Assembly: GCA_028753945.1 (NCBI GenBank)
Contig: JAPNXP010000005.1
Location: forward strand, 2,914,001-2,978,000
DNA length: 64,000 nucleotides
Direction: 5' to 3'
Source of the DNA: Hexactinellida sp. DTS-2022
Lineage: Eukaryota; Porifera; Hexactinellida
Within the stretch, counting starts at the first letter, position 1; every line of letters begins with the position of its first letter. Below the pieces are notes generated by a model. That model did not search any database, was not told the DNA's origin, and saw only the letters and a program-made list of their open reading frames with translations. This document shows, one piece after another, positions 20,373 through 53,646 of the stretch. The translations under genes and the position numbers were made by a program.

Positions 20373-21087
20373 GTAGTGTTTTGACAAAAACTGTCCGCCC
20401 GGACAGTTTTTGTCAAATTTAGCAAAAAATGTTTGGCTACAAAAACTGTCCGGCAGGACAGTTTTTGTCAAACACTAAATACAATCCTGAATATCCGGAT
20501 TTTTGATTATCCGGGAACCCTTGGTTGATTTATTACAATGTGTTTATCCTAAAAGTTAGATTTCTCACTTGTCATTTTCTAGTATACATATTTACTGTAT
20601 TATCACAGATTCGCTTTATTGCGTAATATGCTTACACATATAACTGGCAGGTATTATTATGGATCCTGTTACCCCATATTTTTGTTGCCGTACACTATTT
20701 CTTTAAAAAAAATGTTTTCTACGACTATATTTCCCTTGGATCTAAGCAATGTACTTTTATGTTCCATCTCTGAGGACACCCTAACCGAAGCAGGGCATTT
20801 TAACCGAGGCAATTAAAGAAGATTCCCTAGAGGAGGGGAAAAGTCTTCCCTAGGAAAATTGTTTGGAGAACATTTTTTCAAGGGGAAACAGGATCTCCTC
20901 TGACAACGGCACTTATCTTGACAGCATATTCCCAAGAATATTTTTGAACATCGCTTATTATTCTTTCATTATAGTCTATATCAAATACTCTACGTATTTT
21001 CTGCCTCTTATTAATTAACTATGCTTTTTAACAAGTTCTGTGTAAATAGATTTACTTAGTTTTGACGCTTCGTCAATCCAGATTTAA

Positions 21088-23720
21088 ATGGACTCAACCG
21101 AATATGATATTATTTTGAAATACCTCAAATCCAACTCATACCCTATATCTGCAACAAACAATGAGAAGAGAAAGATCCGCAGGCAATCTGCTAACTACCA
21201 GATTGTAGGAGATAAGCTTTACAGAGTAGCTGACAGTAGTCAGTTATTGGTGATCCAAGCCAATCAGTTGGATGATATCTTAAAAGAAGTACACGAAAAC
21301 TCGGGACATCAGTGTACTAGATACACTTACAAACTTACGAAAGATCGCTACTATTGGCCCAGTATGTATAAGGATATTGAAACTTATGTGAGTACATGCT
21401 TGAGATGCCAGAAGAATCAGCCTAGCCTCAAAGCTCCAATAGATCCTCTAAAACCATTGCCTATAATATCGAAAGTTTGGTATCGCGTTGGCATGGACTT
21501 AACGGGTCCACTTATTGAATCCAATGGCTTCAAATACATTCTAACGATGATAGACCATTTTACCAGATGGATTGAAACGCGCCCACTCCGCTCTAAAGAA
21601 GCCTCAGAGGTTGCCCGAGGTCTATACTCAATCTATTGTAGGCAGGGAGCTCCAGTCCAAATCATCAGTGATAATGGGACCGAATTCAAAAACAAATTAT
21701 CAAAGGCTCTGCATGAAGCTTACGACTGTAAGCTCATCTTCTCGACACCTCGCCATCCTCAGACTAATGGATTAGTGGAATCGTCTCACAAGTCGGTCAA
21801 GCGATCTTTGGTTAAATCTTTAGATGAAAAACATGAAAATTGGTCTGATTTCCTTGAGGAAATTACATTTTCAATAAACATTAGACCGAGAATAACTACT
21901 TCTTTCTCTGCATTCGAGTTAATGCATGGATCTCGCAAACCACGACTACCTATTCAGGCACAAAATCTTGACATCAGTACCCAGAAAACTCGTCAGTAGA
22001 CGAGTGGACTACAGAGGATCAGATTGACGAACTAGTCGATTTCATGCAAGAATCCCAACAATCTAATATAAACGTTGCCATCAAACATCTTACTCATTCC
22101 CAAACACTGATGAAACAGCAATATGACAAAAAGCTTAATAAAAAAACTATATGTAAACCTGAAAAGGGGGATGATGTACTAATTGAAAATACTTACCAAA
22201 ACCAAAAAGGTGGAAAACTCCAAGATCAATGGCTTGGTCCTTATCCCGTTGCTAAGGTGACCCAAAGTAATGTTCACGTCCTTCGAAATAAATCTACGCA
22301 GCGAGTCAAGAGGTCGAAGGTTAAATTGGTGAAAAGGCCCCTTGATCAACAAGAATCACCTCCTAGCAAGTACCAATGCTTGTCTAATGAAAATTCCGAG
22401 GATACTTTGACCAATTGTGACGATGGCCTGTTTATTCCGTCTTCTCAATTTCAAGGAATTGAGGAAACAACTTTTGAGACTAATGTAGTAAAAAAAACAA
22501 GAGAGGAAGTTTTAGAATTCCTCAATTTGATGAAAGATAGAACGATACATTCTAAAAATGAAACTCCACTGTCCGAACTCCATCGCCAATTACATATGAG
22601 GATAGACCTTCCATTTCGACAACTATTCGATTGGAGAGAAGAGCATTTCCCTCAAAAGGAATTTCCAGAGATGCGATTGATGCATTTTGAGACTCGTCAG
22701 GAGATGGCAGATATCTTATCTCAATGGTATTTAGAATGTCATTCTATCAAGATTCCTATTTACCAACACAGTGAGGAAGATTATGAATATTCATCACATT
22801 GGCAACAAAAAAGCATGGATTACGCGACTAAAGTACTACAACCAGTTCTAAATGAATTGATTTTGCAAGTTCCTGAAATAGAAATTGACTTGACCACACA
22901 GAAATCCTCACGACATTTAGTGAGGACATGTGTGTTACATGGGGCGGACACCTCGATGGAATTGAATTATTAAACACATGTTCAATCGACAATTTTATTA
23001 CTTTGCTTAGCTTGCATCATGACACTATTTCTGAAGCTCTCGAACTCCTTCAGAGAACCCTAGCCTCCCCTTCCGGAATGCTTTATCATTGATAAAAACT
23101 CGCCGTTTTGATCAACTAAAGGTGTGGATTGCTCAAATGCTCGGAATGACAGTCTCCAATTATCAGTATAACTTCTTGGGTTATGAAGGACTAACTGTTC
23201 ATCTTTTATGCAGGGATTTAGTCTTATCTTCAGACTCATACCAAATTTCTTTCAATGTTGGAATTGTTGTTACCAGTCCGAAAAGAATCTCACTATCACT
23301 TCACTAACTTCATTCAATTCCAATTGTCAACTTTCTATCAATGAGCATATTAACTCTAGTTTTAGTTGTTTAAAATGCCGAGATCCAGTTAAAAATATTG
23401 AACGGTTATCATTTGGCTTTAACAAGCTATCTCCCCTCTTGATCCTTGAAGTAGGACATATTATAAAGGGAGTTCAGGTGGACGACATCAATGAAACAGT
23501 TACAATACAACACAATGATCAAGTGGTAGAATATACCCTTCTGGGTTTTACAGTTCATTTTGGAATACATTTTTCTATGAGAGTTAAAAGGGAAGATAGT
23601 TGGTACTCTTATGATGGAATGGAACGACCGAAACTAAAAAGTCTAGATAACAAAATGATAAACTTTTGTGGCCGCATTAATTCTATTATTTATGTAGTTA
23701 GTAAAATCACGAAAATGTAG
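21088..23720 (+). pseudogene. Transposase of element A: integrase, GPY/F, USP-like protease
   Basis: Domains in order: an HHCC zinc-binding module (H-ENSG-H ... CLRC) with YYWP; the integrase core with Asp in GMDLTGPL (21496-21498), Asp in ISDNGTEF (21670-21672) and Glu in GLVESSHK (21778-21780); a GPY/F module (WLGPYPVAKVTQSNVHVL); an uncharacterised ~200-residue helical region; then a cysteine-protease-like domain. That domain has a Cys box LLNTCSIDNFI (Cys 22979-22981), two C-x2-C pairs (CWNC and CLKC), LLILEVGHI, and a His box TVHFGIHF...WYSYDG. This order of Cys box, Cys4 finger and His box is that of ubiquitin-specific proteases. Frame breaks near 21990, 22960 and 23210 inactivate the copy. 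No introns, unlike elements B, C, D and O. Integrase assignment is firm; the protease subclass is inferred from motifs. Confidence 0.85.
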
Positions 23721-23984
23721 GCTTGTGTGTTGTTATAATGTTCGATTGATTTTGAAATAAAAACGATCGAGTTTCTATGTGACGAGCCCTTCAGTCTTGG
23801 TTGCTTTGCGACGGATCGACCCTATGCACCTCAAGTTAACGGCTGCTGTGAGGCCTTACTTCTCACCCTTTCTACCATGGAAAATTGTAGAAAGGGACGC
23901 TATATACTATATCCCTTTATAATATTTCCATAGTTTTAACTTGTTTTTCATATTCTAAATTTATAACGGCTTACTTATATGGCG

Positions 23985-24085
23985 GCCGCCTACAATGTCG
24001 GCTAGCCGACATATAAGCAAATTTCGCCGACAAATAATGATTTGGCCGACATATAAGCAAAATCTCGCCGACATATAAGGAATTC
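23985..24085. repeat. Word array CCGACATATAAGCAAA inside element A
   Basis: Three or four copies of GCCGACATATAAG (near 24008, 24050 and 24067) with a related CGCCGACAAATAATG, preceded by its inverse near 23970 (CTTATATGGCGG). Possibly a small nested MITE or subterminal binding sites of element A. Confidence 0.65.
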
Positions 24086-24289
24086 ATCTAAAATTGAACG
24101 AATTATAGGAAAAGTCCCAGCAAGATTCAAAATAAATAATCTATTATGGAGGGAAAATAACCTAGCTACTAAGAAGCGACAATGTATTGAGAGCGAACCA
24201 AAAGCCTGAACTTTTAAAGTGAGTATTATGGAGTAAAACTGTCCGGGCGGACAGTTTTTGTAGCCGGACAGTTTTTGTCAAAACAGTAG

Positions 24290-25060
24290 TATTACTATAC
24301 AATGGATTAAATAAAATCTAATAATATAAGGAATTTATTGACTTTACTCAAATCACCGTGGATAACATTGCTAAAATAAATAACTAATAATATAATTTAT
24401 TATCAATACATAATGAATGAATGGCAGTAAACTCAAGATGGTTTATGATAGAAACAAACTTCAAATTGATCTACCGTTCCTTGTGACTCGAAACAATTAA
24501 CAAATGGTTCTTGACACCCTGGGCGTTGATGACTTGGCGTAAAAAAAATCCAAAATTGCAGCCTGTGCCGACAGCATGTTCCTTTGGAGGCACTATCAAT
24601 AAACAACCAACAAAATATAGTGCCACCAAAAGAACATGCGTCGGCACAGGCTGCAATTTTGGATTTTTTTTTTCTCCGTAGACGGTACCCTGACCACACC
24701 TTTATACATAGAGAGCTGAAACTTGGCATGTAGGTGCGATGGGACCGTCTAATTTGCACCTGGGGTTACGATTTTTGATTAAGAAATATTTGACACATCT
24801 TTAACACCTTTCAAATTTTGTCTATCCATAACTCAAAAATTGTTTACTAAACCCCCAAATTTTATTTCACATTTGGATTCACCATAAAATTCTGCGTCTG
24901 ATGGGAGAATAAATTTTTCAATAAAGGGGTCAATTTCTGCCATAAATGGGGGTTGAAATTTCTTTGTTTACTCACACTTCAATTCAGTAAAGTGTTAAAT
25001 CTAATTCTATTGTTTCAACTTGTAATAATTATATTGATTTAACTTGTTAACAATGAATAG
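24290..25060 (+). repeat. Hairpin-unit copy outside the main array
   Basis: Partial unit of the 10.8-18.3 kb family. The 24290-24548 part is the unit's 3' half, ending in the hairpin at 24549-24663. A new unit start CTCCGTAGACGGTACCCTGA follows and runs to about 25050. Element A interrupts its left side. Confidence 0.88.
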
Positions 25061-46845: not shown

Positions 46846-47404
46846 CAAAGATATTCAACGATTTACCTGGCTATATCTTCTGCATTGTAAATGACATATT
46901 GATCTAACAATTTATTGTCAGGAGGAAAATCTTGGTATTAAATGCATTTTAATTCATAAGTATAACTACCTTGACGTCCAAATTGCGACAAACTAATCTG
47001 AATTAAATTAAGCACGTGTAATTTACAATTCACAGACTTAACTTATTTATTATGAGAGATTTTTTGAGGCTGGTAAAGTCGCGAAGCGTTCCAAACGCTC
47101 AGCGCCCCGATTTTAGGGAGTGCTGTTTCGACGGATTTTGAGTACCGTCGTATTTTGAGTACTTACATTATCCAAACCATGGATAACCAATTTATCGACG
47201 TATTTTGAGTCTGTCGTATTTTGAGTACTGTCGTATTTTGAGTATGTACAATTACCTTCAGTGTTTATTGCAAAGTAAATACTCCATAACAATGACATTA
47301 TTTATTAATTCGAATGGTATTGAAACAACTTTTTCAAGTGTTTACTAACTAAATGTCTTTGTATTTGCTTTAGGAAATTACCTGTCAAACCCAATTTGAA
47401 ATAA

Positions 47405-50400
47405 ATGGATACAGTCGAACTCGAACAAATCCGTGAATATCTGAAGAAGAAAACTATCCCTTCAGAGTTGAAGAAGCAAAGGAGGAACAATTTCATTCGT
47501 AAGTGCAGTGTGTATAGAGTTGAAGAAGGAGACAAACTATTCAAGGTTAGCTGTTCTTTACGTTGTAAAGTTGTTTATGGTTGCAACCGTTCCGCGTAAT
47601 GCGTAAAATCCTCTCTTTTGTCAAGCTTTTTGCACAAGCCTTAGTTATCACACTTTACTAGTCACCCCCTAACGTGTTGGCGTAATGTAACATTTTAAAG
47701 AACCCTTCCAAACATTTATGCATGTTTGTGTTCCGTTATTAATTAATTAATAAATGAATTGCGAGTTAATTAATTAAAAAATAAGTATTTTTGATCTGAA
47801 CACAAGAATTGGGTTTGAAATTCTGACGATCTGAAAAATTAGTTATCTCATATTAATTTTTCAGTGTGTTCGCGATTCTAACGGTGGGGAAACATTCCTC
47901 CAAGTACCAACTCAATCTGAAGTTTTGGAGATTATTCAGTACTACCATGATGTAACCCATGCTGGAATGCGAACCACTATTCATGCTATTCGCTCTAAGT
48001 ACACTTGGATGGGATTATACAAAGACGTTGAAAATTATGTAGGCAATTGTGATCAATTATTTAAAACTATTGCCAGTATTTTTAGTTAAGTTTATTCCTA
48101 GATCAAAACCTGTCATCAGTGTCAAATAACTGCTTCACTGCCACCCTAACCTCAACGAGAACTTCAACCCATTTCATCACCTGAAGAACCTTGGAAACAT
48201 TGTGGAATCGACCTTGTATGTGACATGCCGGCAAACTCCTTTGGATTTCACCACATGCTAGTTATCGTATGCTATCTAACTAAGTTTGTGGTTGCTCGTG
48301 CTCTAATGACCAAGATAACCAAAGATGTATTGAGCAAACTGCAGGAGATCTATCTTACCTATGGTGTTCCTCACGTCATTCAACACGACTAGGGCCCAGG
48401 ATTTAGCAGCAAGGTGATATTCAATTTGTTAATTTGAGTAATTGAATCTTATGGAGTTGGTTGTATCCTATCACTTTAATTAATTGATAATATACTATCT
48501 GGACAATCAGATATACGTATTTGCATACAATAATCAAGTTCAATAGATTTAATTTAGAATTAAGATATAAATAAATTGCCTTATAATGTCTATCATTTAA
48601 AAGGAATTCCAAAACTACCACCAAAAATTGAACGTAGACAATCGTAAGACCACCGCCTAACACCCTCAAAGTAATGGACTAGTAGAAGCGCACAACAAAA
48701 TCCTCAAAACGTAAGTGAAATTCAGTTTTCACTAGTGAATTCCAATTTATTACAACGTATTTAATTAGCAAAATCAATAAAATGAAATTCGAAAAGGATG
48801 CTGAGTGGCCAGACAAGCTTCAATCTGCTGTATTTTCTATCAACACTCAGTTCAAGAGAGCAACAGGCTCCACAGCATTTCGACTCATGTTTGGAAGAGA
48901 GTGCGATCCATTTCCCCTTCTGAACTTGATATCTGGAGCTCATGAGGACACTCAAGGTCAACAAAATCATTTTTTTGATGATGAAGAAACGGTAGGTACT
49001 AATTTATGTTCTATTATTACACATTTTAAAATTAATATTTTAACGTCAATTCCAGACTGGATCCATAGAAAGTTTAATTGCAGTTATTATTTACGTTTCT
49101 AGACGAACGATTATCCAATGGAAACACTATGTCCTTTTCAATTACCTGACTTTGAAGATAATGGATCTATCAGATTGAAGATAATCGTACTAGTGAAAGA
49201 ATGTCAGCGCGGAATAACATCATGAAAGAGCAAAAAATACAGAAGAATATTTTCGATCGCAAAGTCAAGCGTAATAGGTAGTGATATTTGTTATGTGATT
49301 TGCTTACTTAAATTGGAACTAAACCCGGATGTTATTGAAATATACTTTCTAACTACTATTGTAAATAATAACATTAAATTATTCTGTATTACGTAATTGA
49401 TTATACGTATTACATTGTGAAATAGATCTGAGTTTGAGGAAGGTGATTTGATTCTTGTTCAGAACATCAAGAAATCAAAGAAACTACCTGGGACGAAAAA
49501 CGAACAAAAGTTTCTTGGTCCATATACGGTTTCCGAAGTAACTCCTAGCCATCTAGTTACACAGAAAAATCCTGCTAGTGACAAAATGACAAAGATTCCA
49601 ATTCACTTGTCACGAAAGTATCGGCAGAAAGATATCAAAGTAAGTTAAAGTTGTTGATTACTTATTCAGTAAACTATTATTAGCAGGGTCAAATACGTCC
49701 TCTTGTATACTTATGTATGAATATATATAACTTCGATAGGTTAAACCACAATCTTATGGACATAGGAGATCAACAGCGAGAAAACCTAAATATGTCAACA
49801 TACAATCTGGTGAGTAGAATAATCTTGATCAGCAGTTAATATAAAGCAAACTAATATTCCTGAGATATTCCCGAATAAGTTACTATAATTGATGTATATT
49901 ATTATTTATTAATATATGTCTCATTTCTGTCTGCCTGTCTCTCTGTGTGTAACACTTTGTTTCGCATTATAAAACTCGGGTACCAATCTGAAATAATGAT
50001 AGTAAATAATCGAACAAAAAATAACACTCCACTGGGGTAATCGAGTATGCTCATTTTGAATATAAAATTCCAGCAACATATGTGATTATTTGATGCAAGT
50101 AATCGATTTACTCGACTAAATACGAATTGAAACCGAGACGGGGTCTCAAGCATTTCGTTATAACGGGAGAATTTAGTTCCTTAAAACATATATAGGCACC
50201 AGGAGAGCGTCTCATGCGAATGCAAACCATTTGCAATTCTAAAACCGTTTAAATTTTGGGTAGAACTTAACCTAATGTTTGTCATTTGATAACTTAGGAG
50301 AAGTAATCGATGAGCTTTGTTTGGGCGCAACTGAAGAAACATTCGGAGATATGAATGAACAGAGTATAATGACACCAGAAATACTATCATAAAAACTCAA

Positions 50401-51640
50401 TTCGCTCAAATCAGAGGTCATTTCAGCTCTACAAACATGCACGTACATTACACCACTTCATAGAAAACTCGCAACAAAAGCTTTTACATTAAGATCAATG
50501 GATATTCTTTTTGAATACAGTTCAAGACTCGAAATAAGCTCCGAGTTCAAGCAGCAAATAGGACTTAGCGTTGCCTTATGGTATGACGAATATGCCGAAG
50601 CTGAATTTGGTGCCAACATACCACGGGATAAATGGGAACGAGACTACCCCTTCGCTGTCCTTCTACCAGTGGTGATGTTGTTGATTTTCCCCGAAGAAGT
50701 GATTCAAATCACTCTAGAATCACCTCCTAAGACAAACTCGGAAAATAGAGTGTTAACGCGAGATGACTTTCATTTACCAACAGCAAGGGGAATATAATAA
50801 CATTGCACAAACTAACACCTGCCCCCTCGACAATATCATCGCCGTATTAAGTCTGTCACTCTACACCATCTGATGCGAAATTCCATGAACTTATTACCCT
50901 TGTCAATGAGTTTAATTTCGATAAGCTCAGAGACTTCATTGCTAAAGCGATTGGAATGCAGACTACATACTCTGACCTGATGGAACAATACGACTTTTAC
51001 GGCTCTGAGGGTACAACTATTAAATACCTACAAAGTATTAACCTCTGCAACGACAAATACACATCCACCTTCTACTGCCATCAATGTCATAGCACATTCA
51101 CCTGGACCTGTATGCTTGGAATAATCGGTTCTGTTATCACTAACATCGAGCATTCAATATGTGCCAAACTACTCCCATCAAAATGCAATAAATGTGGTTG
51201 TAGTCAGACCGATAAGTTTGAAATAAGCTCCAGCCAATTTGATTCTATCCCTCCACTTCTCACCATTGAAATTGGACACCTTCCTAAGTCTAGTCTACTA
51301 CTACCTGACATCAATACACTCTTTACCATCAATCACAAAAACAAACTATTGCGGTACGAGTTAGCCGGCCTCTCGATCCATCTCTCAAATCACTTTTACT
51401 CACTAATTCGCCTCGACAACCAATTCTATAAATTTGACAGCATACGCGAATCACCACTCGAATTATACCCCAATTCTTCATTCATCGGAACAGTCAATAC
51501 AGTATACTACACACTGCACTCGCTGAATAACTCCTCCTATTTTCGAAAGCGCTCAAAGACAAGGTACATCGAACCCTGTGGCCTGTGGGGACCTCTGCCC
51601 GAGGCTATTCAGGCAACGCAATCCCTATCATGGTGAGCCC
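47405..51640 (+). pseudogene. Transposase of element B: integrase, GPY/F, USP-like protease; intron-containing
   Basis: Predicted exons: 47405-47545, 47865-48038, 48102-48413, 48604-48710, 48769-48991, 49103-49277, 49426-49639, 49740-49809, then 50298 to about 51640. Content in order: VELEQIREYL; YYHDVTHAGMRTTIHAI and CHQC of the HHCC finger; the core with Asp in CGIDL, second Asp in QHD (next codon a stop), Glu in NGLVEAHNK; FRLMFGRECDP; FDRKVKRN; GPY/F FLGPYTVSEVTPSHLV; a helical domain; Cys box TNTCPLDNIIAVLS (Cys 50820-50822); CHQC and CNKC finger; LLTIEIGHL; His box LSIHLSNHFYSLI...FYKFDS. In-frame stops in exon 3 and frameshifts near 49180, 50755 and 50865 disable it. Introns are 62-490 bp with GT-AG ends. 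The downstream tail GTSARGYSG...CNGMSP is shared with element O. Confidence 0.85.
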
Positions 51641-51832
51641 AGATAATGGAAACGCGACCTGCAACGGCATGTCCCCAGTGGCGAAAACGCGACAGAACAC
51701 TACACCAACACTCAACAATCTAAAGTGTATTGCGGGAAAGGCAACGCAACTGACGAGTCCAAGCCGGGACGAAACACAAATAAAATCAGTTGAGTTGTAA
51801 TTAATTAATTATTTCAGCTGAGAGTGTCCGTT

Positions 51833-52290
51833 TATATAGTTTAGTATTATAATTACAATAGTTACGCTATATCTGAGTACCTGCTATCTGGAATTCACCA
51901 CCAGCTTAGGGATAGGAGAGTAATATTATCAGCTAGGTAATAGCGGTACTGGTATAGTGTAGCTGTTGTATTGTATGTGTCTGGTTTATATAGTTTAGTA
52001 TTATAATTACAATAGTTACGCTATATATGAGTACCTGCTATCTGGAATTCACCACCAGCTTAGGGTTAGGAGAGTAATATTATCAGCTAGGTTATAGCGG
52101 TACTGGTATAGTGTAGCTGTTGTATTGTATGTGTCTGGTTTATATAGTTTAGTATTATAATTACAATGGTTACGCTATATATGAGTACCTGCTATCTGGA
52201 ATTCACCACCAGCTTAGGGTTAGGAGAGTAATATATCAGCTAGGTTATAGCGGTACTGGTATAGTGTAGCTGTTGTATTGTATTTGTCCT
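51833..52290. repeat. Tandem triplication, ~153-bp unit
   Basis: Three consecutive copies starting near 51833, 51985 and 52138, each containing TTTATATAGTTTAGTATTAT, CTGCTATCTGGAATTCACCA and GCGGTACTGGTATAGTGTAG. Near-identical, so recent. Located in the 3' non-coding part of element B. Confidence 0.92.
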
Positions 52291-52550
52291 GTCTAAGTTG
52301 TGTGTATTTACAGGCTAACTAATAATTCTATCCCTCTAGCCATTAATTTTGTATATGCTTTTGTAAATTGTATCATTAATATAGTGTATTTTTGTAATAC
52401 ATTTCCGCTGATTTCGCATTACAAACTTTGTTATATAGTATATGTATAAGCATATATTATATATATAGTTATGTTTAGTTTTGAGTTGGGTTTAGTATTC
52501 CACATTTATTTAATCTGATCGGATCGTATTAACAGTAAACATGTTCAGAC

Positions 52551-53338
52551 CAGTGATGTTTTCCAGGGGGAACGCGGGGGAACGCCGTTCCCCCACTATT
52601 TTTGCTGGGGGAACGCCGTTCCCCCAATGGCAGTAATGTTTTCCATAGGGAACGCGGGGAAACGCCGTTCTCCCACTATTTTCTCTGGGGGAACATCGTT
52701 TCCCAATGAGAAAATTCAAGCCCGGAGGGAACAGCGTTCCCCTAAAGATCACTCAGTTGTACAACTGTTTGTTTACGTGTTGTTTGAACTTTGATGTCTT
52801 TTTTAATCAGACGAGACCGTCAATCTAGGGCTCAACGAGGGTTTGTTAATAACATACTTAACAAGAATGAAATAGAATAGTTAAATTATATGATGCTTTG
52901 TTTAATACTAGTGTCATCAATTGTTAAAGGGAGCGAAGCTCCTGTTTAGCCTAATTTAGAAGTTTTGTATAGGATGTCTTTATTAAGTTCGTCAATAAGC
53001 TCCAAACTTACTTTACACTTGCTGGAAGATCATAATTAGTCGTTGAGAATTAAATTTGGAAGATTATATGGTATATACTTGTCAGGAAAGTCAAAATTTC
53101 CCAAATGCAACCCCTGCAGGTTGCAAAATTGGGCAAACAAAATAAGTGCCTCAAATTCACTCATATTCCTAACCACTTTTGGATTTAGACCAATTAGAAT
53201 GACTCACAACAGTACACACTCGAAAATTCGCAATTCTGCAAATTTTATTTTTTTTTGATCATATATGGTCATGTGGATGTTTCCAATTTTGATTTTCATG
53301 AGCGTTCCCCCACTTCAAAAATTGGCAAAACATCACTG
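52551..53338. mobile_element. hAT-type MITE nested in element B
   Basis: 788 bp. Ends CAGTGATGTTTTCC and GGCAAAACATCACTG. Perfect 8-bp target duplication GTTCAGAC (52543-52550, 53339-53346). The left part is an array of GGGGGAACGCCGTTCCCCC palindromes; the right end has a single AGCGTTCCCCCAC. No coding. Inserted after element B. Confidence 0.92.
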
Positions 53339-53646
53339 GTTCAGACCGTATGGAATAGTATATTAAAATACTTTGAAAGATACCTGGAGCAGAAAGAAAT
53401 ATTATCTAAAATATAAAGATAAATTGTAAAATGAGTAGGAAATTGCATTCATAGTAGCGTCTCAGTCTATCAGAGCGCCTCAAAATATCACAGCATAATT
53501 TGTAATAGAAAAAATACTAATAGAAAATAGAATAGATAGAATAGGATACAAAAAATAGAAGAAATAGAATAGAAAAAAATACTCAAATACTCAAAATACG
53601 CCAGTACTCAAAATACGACAGTACTCAAAATACGTCGAAACAGTGC

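Follow-up and report, generated by a model that had tools for sequence, protein, structure and literature searches.

Does the integrase-type transposon at this glass sponge locus end in a protease of the ubiquitin-specific kind? In the window, i.e., the whole 64,000-nt stretch analyzed, a preliminary description had placed in two elements, A and B, a domain downstream of the integrase and GPY/F regions whose boxes follow the order seen in ubiquitin-specific proteases (USPs), and had suggested that it could protect the transposase or its target complex from turnover. Taking the profile comparisons and a predicted structure together, we consider it very probable that the domain is a divergent cysteine isopeptidase of the USP fold, equipped with a Cys-His-Asp triad and a candidate four-cysteine zinc site, that it forms the C-terminal part of a Gypsy-integrase-related transposase and that it is likely catalytically competent.

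Element A occupies positions 20377-24285 on the (+) strand (3909 bp), as defined by its inverted repeats and mapped ends, with the termini TGTTTTGAC...GTCAAAACA on the (+) strand, an inverted repeat arm of 48 bp and an unstranded 4-bp target site duplication, GTAG, to its left (20373-20376) and right (24286-24289). A perfect 32-nt inverted repeat (24541-24572 and 24640-24671) lies just beyond the right end. The integrase, with its H2C2 zinc-binding and rve core domains (Pfam E-values of 4.2e-19 and 8.9e-13, respectively), spans 21088-21996 (+), and the next stretch (21972-22970, +) comprises the end of the integrase with the GPY/F stretch WLGPYPVAKV, recognized by eye, and then a linker without a Pfam family. 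A SYP...NY...LYR stretch, which may correspond to the Ginger1 motif YPYY that precedes the zinc finger, was seen by eye in element A only. Element B extends from 47124 to 53642 on the (+) strand (6519 bp), with 17-bp repeats of the CGTATTTTGAGTACTGT type at both ends, an inverted repeat arm of 41-52 bp and an unstranded 4-bp target site duplication, GTGC (left copy, 47120-47123; right copy, 53643-53646). It retains an integrase remnant at 47862-48473 (+; matching the integrase of A-type elements at 25% identity, E = 1.7e-12), an H2C2 match in the frame at 47835-48086 (Pfam E = 1.8e-13) and, at 49427-49618 (+), a stretch that aligns with the GPY/F region of that same integrase (28%, E = 1.3e-6). 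On the 3′ side of its domain, a 154-bp unit occurs three times and an 80-bp unit twice (51830-52288 and 52551-52708).

A profile built from 24 domain copies of this genome, when compared with all stop-to-stop frames of at least 20 aa in the window, yielded five domain pieces at E-values up to 1, all on the (+) strand. Three belong to element A: piece 1 (22922-23062; profile positions 1-47, E = 2.5e-18), with the candidate catalytic Cys codon at 22979-22981; piece 2 (23056-23256; positions 46-111, E = 2.6e-18); and piece 3 (23247-23705; positions 109-260, E = 4e-59), which holds the C-x2-C pairs and the candidate His (23568-23570) and Asp (23613-23615) codons. Taken in order, they span profile positions 1-260 and are separated by two frame changes inside the domain. 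Element B shows one such frame change, between piece 1 (50781-50867; positions 7-35, E = 3.2e-10; candidate Cys codon, 50820-50822) and piece 2 (50863-51522; positions 46-260, E = 1.6e-82; candidate His codon, 51391-51393, and Asp codon, 51436-51438). The domain is thus present in both elements, with coordinates slightly wider than first noted (22922-23705 and 50781-51522), and the A pieces align directly with those of B (28% over 116 aa, E = 6e-17). The window copies of elements A and B are dead, and other copies in the genome are intact, with the domain motif in a single continuous frame.

All of the boxes initially reported were recovered, namely the Cys box (NTCSIDN in A, NTCPLDN in B), two C-x2-C pairs, LL.[EI][VI]GH and the His box. 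The candidate catalytic His is the H of [IN]HF, not that of the conserved "GH." In profile alignments, this H of [IN]HF lines up with that of the USP box GGHY and the Asp of WY.YD with the first D in W..FDD, and NTC aligns to the USP GNTC box in the global profile alignment only, the local ones stopping short of the Cys box. In the predicted model, Cys20 opens a helix and His217 a strand, and Asp232 comes after the strand that succeeds it. By profile alignment and predicted secondary structure, the candidate residues appear in register with the USP triad. Residues were counted in 77 unique sequences (from 84 rows), with rows that do not cover a site left out. The Cys was kept in 61 of 61 sequences, the His in 51 of 58 and the Asp in 51 of 52, and the four zinc-type cysteines in 64/65, 62/65, 67/68 and 66/67; all four cysteines of the two pairs are present in each of 24 domain members and may bind zinc. 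The seven His changes, found among others in the otherwise open copies L041 and L047, lead to five different residues, and some copies are therefore probably inactive. Two USP boxes are altered, G[YS]EG standing in place of QDxxEF and xHF in place of GGHY.

To which protease class does it belong? No Pfam family calls the domain in 24 members; the Pfam UCH profile, whose cut-off is 23.9 bits, matches two of them beneath that level, L034 (16.7 bits) and L046 (14.7 bits), with residues 131-236 aligned to profile positions 116-234. The genome has 61 places that match UCH, and comparison by eye shows no overlap of any of them with a listed domain copy. To compare three candidate classes on an equal footing by profile-profile alignment, control profiles were made from hand-picked host proteins of the same genome (11 of 61 UCH matches, 5 of 17 Ulp1 matches and 7 of at least 150 OTU matches) and domain alignments from hand-picked intact or nearly intact copies (15, 24 and 17 sequences from at least 151 matches). 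The 11 host USPs all score above the UCH cut-off, and their profile finds USP structures in PDB. The domain matched five of these USPs with an E-value of 8.4e-8 and all 11 with E-values of 3.3e-5 (local) and 3.9e-7 (global); the other six USPs alone gave 0.0086, and three of those gave 0.16. The A-type and B-type subsets each matched the five USPs (1.2e-5 and 1.1e-5, respectively), and L043 alone matched USPs weakly (0.0025-0.0048, local).

The preliminary description had named three outcomes that would speak against its reading, namely a best match to Ulp1, a best match to no protease, or a Cys and His that do not superpose; none of these emerged, the Cys and His being placed by profile alignment and predicted secondary structure. 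Ulp1 (C48) was rejected at E = 0.45 and OTU (C85) at E = 0.41, its strongest value being 0.026 for the A-type profile in global mode; the margin in favor of USPs thus exceeds six orders of magnitude with five USPs and is about four with 11. The split Ulp1 and OTU control profiles recover their own kind (1.7e-5 and 1.1e-22; 8.8e-24 and 1.7e-39), and no cross-match arises between the Ulp1, OTU and USP profiles (0.23-0.62). With profile-profile scores of 59.8 (five USPs) and 42.5 (11 USPs), where 200 column-shuffled versions reach 30.1 at most and reversed profiles 13.6 and 17.5, the resemblance to USPs is, at the level of these profiles, beyond chance, since the real scores exceed the shuffled maximum. 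Several sequence searches were negative within their scope: Pfam OTU and Ulp1 matched neither the 10 proteins of one set nor the 24 domain members, NCBIfam gave nothing related (best E = 0.014), and the 15-sequence profile, run against PDB sequences, brought up chance-like matches only (best E = 0.26). The Pfam C98 profile is silent in this genome, its controls being equally silent. Josephin was rejected, two of the 24 members giving a weak match to it (best E = 0.026).

The predicted model, which is of high confidence, matches USPs along its whole length. Among 995 chains pre-ranked by Foldseek, the best 50 structural matches were all USP or USPL1, which supports the USP/USPL1-like reading proposed at the outset; Ulp1 and OTU are absent from these 50, which come from the preselected chains. 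USPL1 (solved with SUMO), USP46, USP12 and USP1 are among them, trailing the best match by no more than about 1 Z unit. In the model-based comparison the domain is USP-like, and the matches do not separate C19 from C98 (USPL1). Since this fold evidence is independent of the weak USP subset, our confidence in the identification is kept.

A search of the assembly (112.4 Mb, 18 contigs) with the element B domain gave at least 151 domain matches, a lower bound, with identities from 100% to about 24%, and larger stretches were taken around 20 places, two of which are the window elements A and B. In A-type copies, a single stop-to-stop frame runs through the integrase, the linker and the domain (e.g., 883, 885, 886, 897, 922 and 931 aa). 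Pfam H2C2 and rve were found in the intact copies L032, L034, L035, L036, L039 and L041, and L043 has a weak rve match only. Among the 13 ORFs of at least 700 aa, all five integrase motif patterns occur in six (L032, L035, L038, L039, L040 and L041), with one to three patterns missing from the rest, and the GPY/F pattern W[LVI]GPY occurs in nine, being absent from L036, L043, L044 and L045. The ~150-aa linker between GPY/F and the domain (window 21972-22970; L039:4430-4880) is conserved between A- and B-types in a 17-sequence alignment and has no convincing Pfam family. Among seven B-type loci, five match the A-type integrase in short stretches (25-45% identity), and no match was found at L024 and L029, from which only short flanks were available.

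We found a 4-bp duplication beside matching inverted repeats in 18 of 19 loci (the exception is L046; L047 lies outside the 19), with those of L044 and L048 also readable as 6 bp, and none of the 18 is CCGG, CCGT or ACGG. The inverted repeat arms measure about 72-260 bp in most loci taken and 416 bp in L048, and the 5′ ends read TGTTT in A-type elements and window element B, and TGTTG in L048. Pairs of near-identical copies (L037/L038, 99.7%; L039/L040, 99.9%; L043/L044, 99.9%) indicate that the elements moved recently. Trees of the integrase and of the domain agree on the closest A-type groups (L032 with L037/L039, L033 with L036, and L035 with L031 or L045); the grouping of L041 differs between the two trees, and the L043 branch is too long to place. 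The open 972-aa frame of L043 and L044 (L043:2707-5622 and L044:2736-5651) encodes an integrase that has diverged much further (rve E = 8.8e-5), two stretches recognized by eye, one PHD-like and the other CXC-like and rich in cysteine, and a domain 33% identical to the A-type reference domain. Based on this frame, the USP-like domain may have moved between transposon lineages.

Two further observations concern host USP genes. Two pieces of a domain copy (C7:240571-240864 and 241108-241422) lie amid exon matches of a host USP gene (C7:238559-243996), where the copy is probably an insertion, and nine host USP matches with open frames of 394-605 aa stand in a row within 45 kb at C1:15023836-15068355.

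Is the domain maintained? Selection was assessed in 11 hand-picked pairs, some sharing members, by NG86 with Jukes-Cantor correction. Eight pairs gave a dN/dS value for the domain, which ranged from 0.09 to 0.27 in seven of them, several of the low values being rough because synonymous distances are near 2 or more; the close pair L012/L015, with 17 differences, gave 0.87. In many pairs, synonymous sites are at or near saturation. The other three pairs yielded no value (saturated synonymous sites in two, zero synonymous change in one). In comparison, dN/dS was 0.20-0.27 for the integrase (three pairs) and 0.12-0.51 for the linker (five pairs). By this measure, most comparisons indicate purifying selection on the domain, which is for the most part preserved with a stringency similar to that of the integrase. 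Among 5.8 billion proteins, 36 different ones (P0001-P0036) matched (5, 7 and 30 per search), in searches that need shared 5-residue words and, in two of three, similar length, so that distant or full-length relatives may be missed. The named matches, P0023 and P0033, are hypothetical proteins of the glass sponge Oopsacas minuta, and the others are unnamed ENA sequences; in P0033, GPY/F stretch, linker and domain follow one another continuously, as judged by eye. In viral contigs, none of 88 pattern matches was confirmed. According to PMC10280926, the Oopsacas genome contains 15.44% DNA transposons and 18.01% unclassified repeats; the words "Ginger" and "ubiquitin" are absent from the main text of the Aphrocallistes genome paper (PMC10282587).

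What could such a domain do for the element? In the mechanism we propose, the integrase part would carry the USP-like domain to the transposon ends and the target chromatin, the domain would strip ubiquitin or SUMO from the transposase or surrounding proteins, and the complex could thereby escape degradation or silencing until insertion and repair finish. This cis-protection of the transposase complex, which we offer tentatively and at a little under an even chance, would be the simplest role, the alternative being removal of marks from chromatin or repair proteins. The latter would have the domain act mainly in trans, taking ubiquitin or SUMO off histones, silencing factors or repair factors at the insertion or excision site and so opening the target or steering repair; we regard this as possible, if on balance doubtful. 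That USPL1 (solved with SUMO), USP46, USP12 and USP1 score so near the top match, among the best 50 of 995 chains, is consistent with a trans role, as is the DNA-repair role proposed for the Ginger OTU/Ulp1 domains (Bao et al. 2010, PMC2836005), but the sequence carries no substrate information and a common fold is no proof of substrate.

A domain that has lost catalysis and keeps the USP fold as a ubiquitin/SUMO-binding or structural module appears improbable: the His replacements in 7 of 58 sequences and the degenerate USP boxes outside the triad would agree with it, but Cys (61/61) and Asp (51/52) are kept in the unique sequences that cover these sites, and five different replacements in seven sequences look more like scattered loss than one inherited change. 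Catalytically dead USP-fold proteins do exist. Since a cysteine-protease-like domain closes a long single frame, a protease that processes the transposase polyprotein, as in viruses or Mavericks, might also be considered; however, Mavericks use the Ulp1/adenoviral-protease type, the fold predicted here is that of a USP, no match to host Ulp1 was obtained, and we judge this role very unlikely. There is hardly any chance that the resemblance reflects a zinc-ribbon or motif coincidence in an unrelated zinc-binding fold. Pfam Zn_ribbon_3CxxC does match 6 of 24 members weakly (best E = 0.0079), the PDB profile search was unconvincing and the profile signal is weak with one USP subset, but the high-confidence model matching USPs over its full length and the shuffled controls have largely refuted this explanation already. 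With moderate confidence, we lean toward an undescribed family of transposon-borne USP-fold isopeptidases, between C19 and C98, that is fused to Ginger-like transposases, is common also to the divergent-integrase element L043/L044 and would strip ubiquitin or SUMO at the insertion site to evade host turnover or silencing.

How do these elements compare with known systems? The label "Ginger-type" used at first holds insofar as they are Gypsy-integrase-related cut-and-paste transposons and fails for the published Ginger1 target-site rule. As described in the available text of PMC2836005, Ginger1 shares the cut-and-paste mode, a Gypsy-type integrase with H2C2, DDE and GPY/F, terminal inverted repeats (about 40-270 bp in Ginger1), 4-bp target duplications and a ubiquitin/SUMO-type cysteine protease domain after the integrase, a candidate in our case. 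However, Ginger1 elements carry OTU or Ulp1, as had been stated beforehand, and one has a PHD, whereas the fold predicted here is that of a USP; their duplications are CCGG in 75% and CCGT/ACGG in 24%, compared to none of 18 here; and their ends follow TGTNR, which L048 (TGTTG) would fit, unlike the TGTTT of A-type elements and window element B (PMC2836005). The host here is a glass sponge, and the word "sponge" is absent from the main text of that paper. Target-duplication lengths of related superfamilies (PMC10045372) and giant transposons (PMC6431247) have been covered elsewhere.

Among open-licence PubMed Central papers, with Repbase outside the search, none came up that places a USP-fold domain in a transposon of the Gypsy-integrase type, in line with the suggestion that this version may be new, nor did any combine USPL1 with a transposon and an integrase or deal with USP-domain transposases. 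Transposases with ubiquitin/SUMO-type proteases are already known; this protease class in this transposon type was not found described in the literature searched. If our reading is true, such transposons have recruited a further class of ubiquitin/SUMO protease independently, after OTU and Ulp1. If the domain is a USP-fold enzyme, ubiquitin/SUMO proteases of different structure would have come to occupy the same terminus of one kind of transposase, and such repeated recruitment would be a strong hint that tag removal helps transposition. The domain, which lies below the Pfam calling level, would add a family to the USP-like proteases. In this genome, several of the at least 150 OTU-domain matches have identical scores at dispersed places, and other transposons here thus probably carry OTU; in one 1.4-kb OTU stretch, two frames exceed 100 aa, one of them OTU-type (203 aa).

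Compared with USPs (peptidase C19), the domain has the same predicted fold over its whole length, with a Cys box, two finger C-x2-C pairs, a His box, then the Asp and a last strand. It differs in that GNTCYMN is reduced to NTC[SPA]xDN, in its xHF and G[YS]EG boxes, in its length (~260 aa, compared to about 300-400 in host USP matches) and in its best UCH score of 16.7 bits, against the cut-off of 23.9. USPL1 (peptidase C98) is described as lacking the zinc site, unlike the domain described here, in which four cysteines are conserved.

Two other systems offer parallels. Helitrons carry VTD and OTU domains, for which shielding of proteins needed for transposition has been suggested, and in this respect likewise combine a deubiquitinase-type domain with their mobility protein; they are, however, rolling-circle elements with herpes-tegument-like (Asp-x-His) or OTU folds, whereas the present case is an integrase-type element with a predicted USP fold (PMC9741609). 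The other is the Trichomonas protein XP_001314237.1, a DDE transposase that also contains a peptidase C19 domain; it is mentioned as a single protist protein of the transposase_11 type (pfam01609), whereas the domain described here belongs to a family of Gypsy-integrase elements (PMC2836005).
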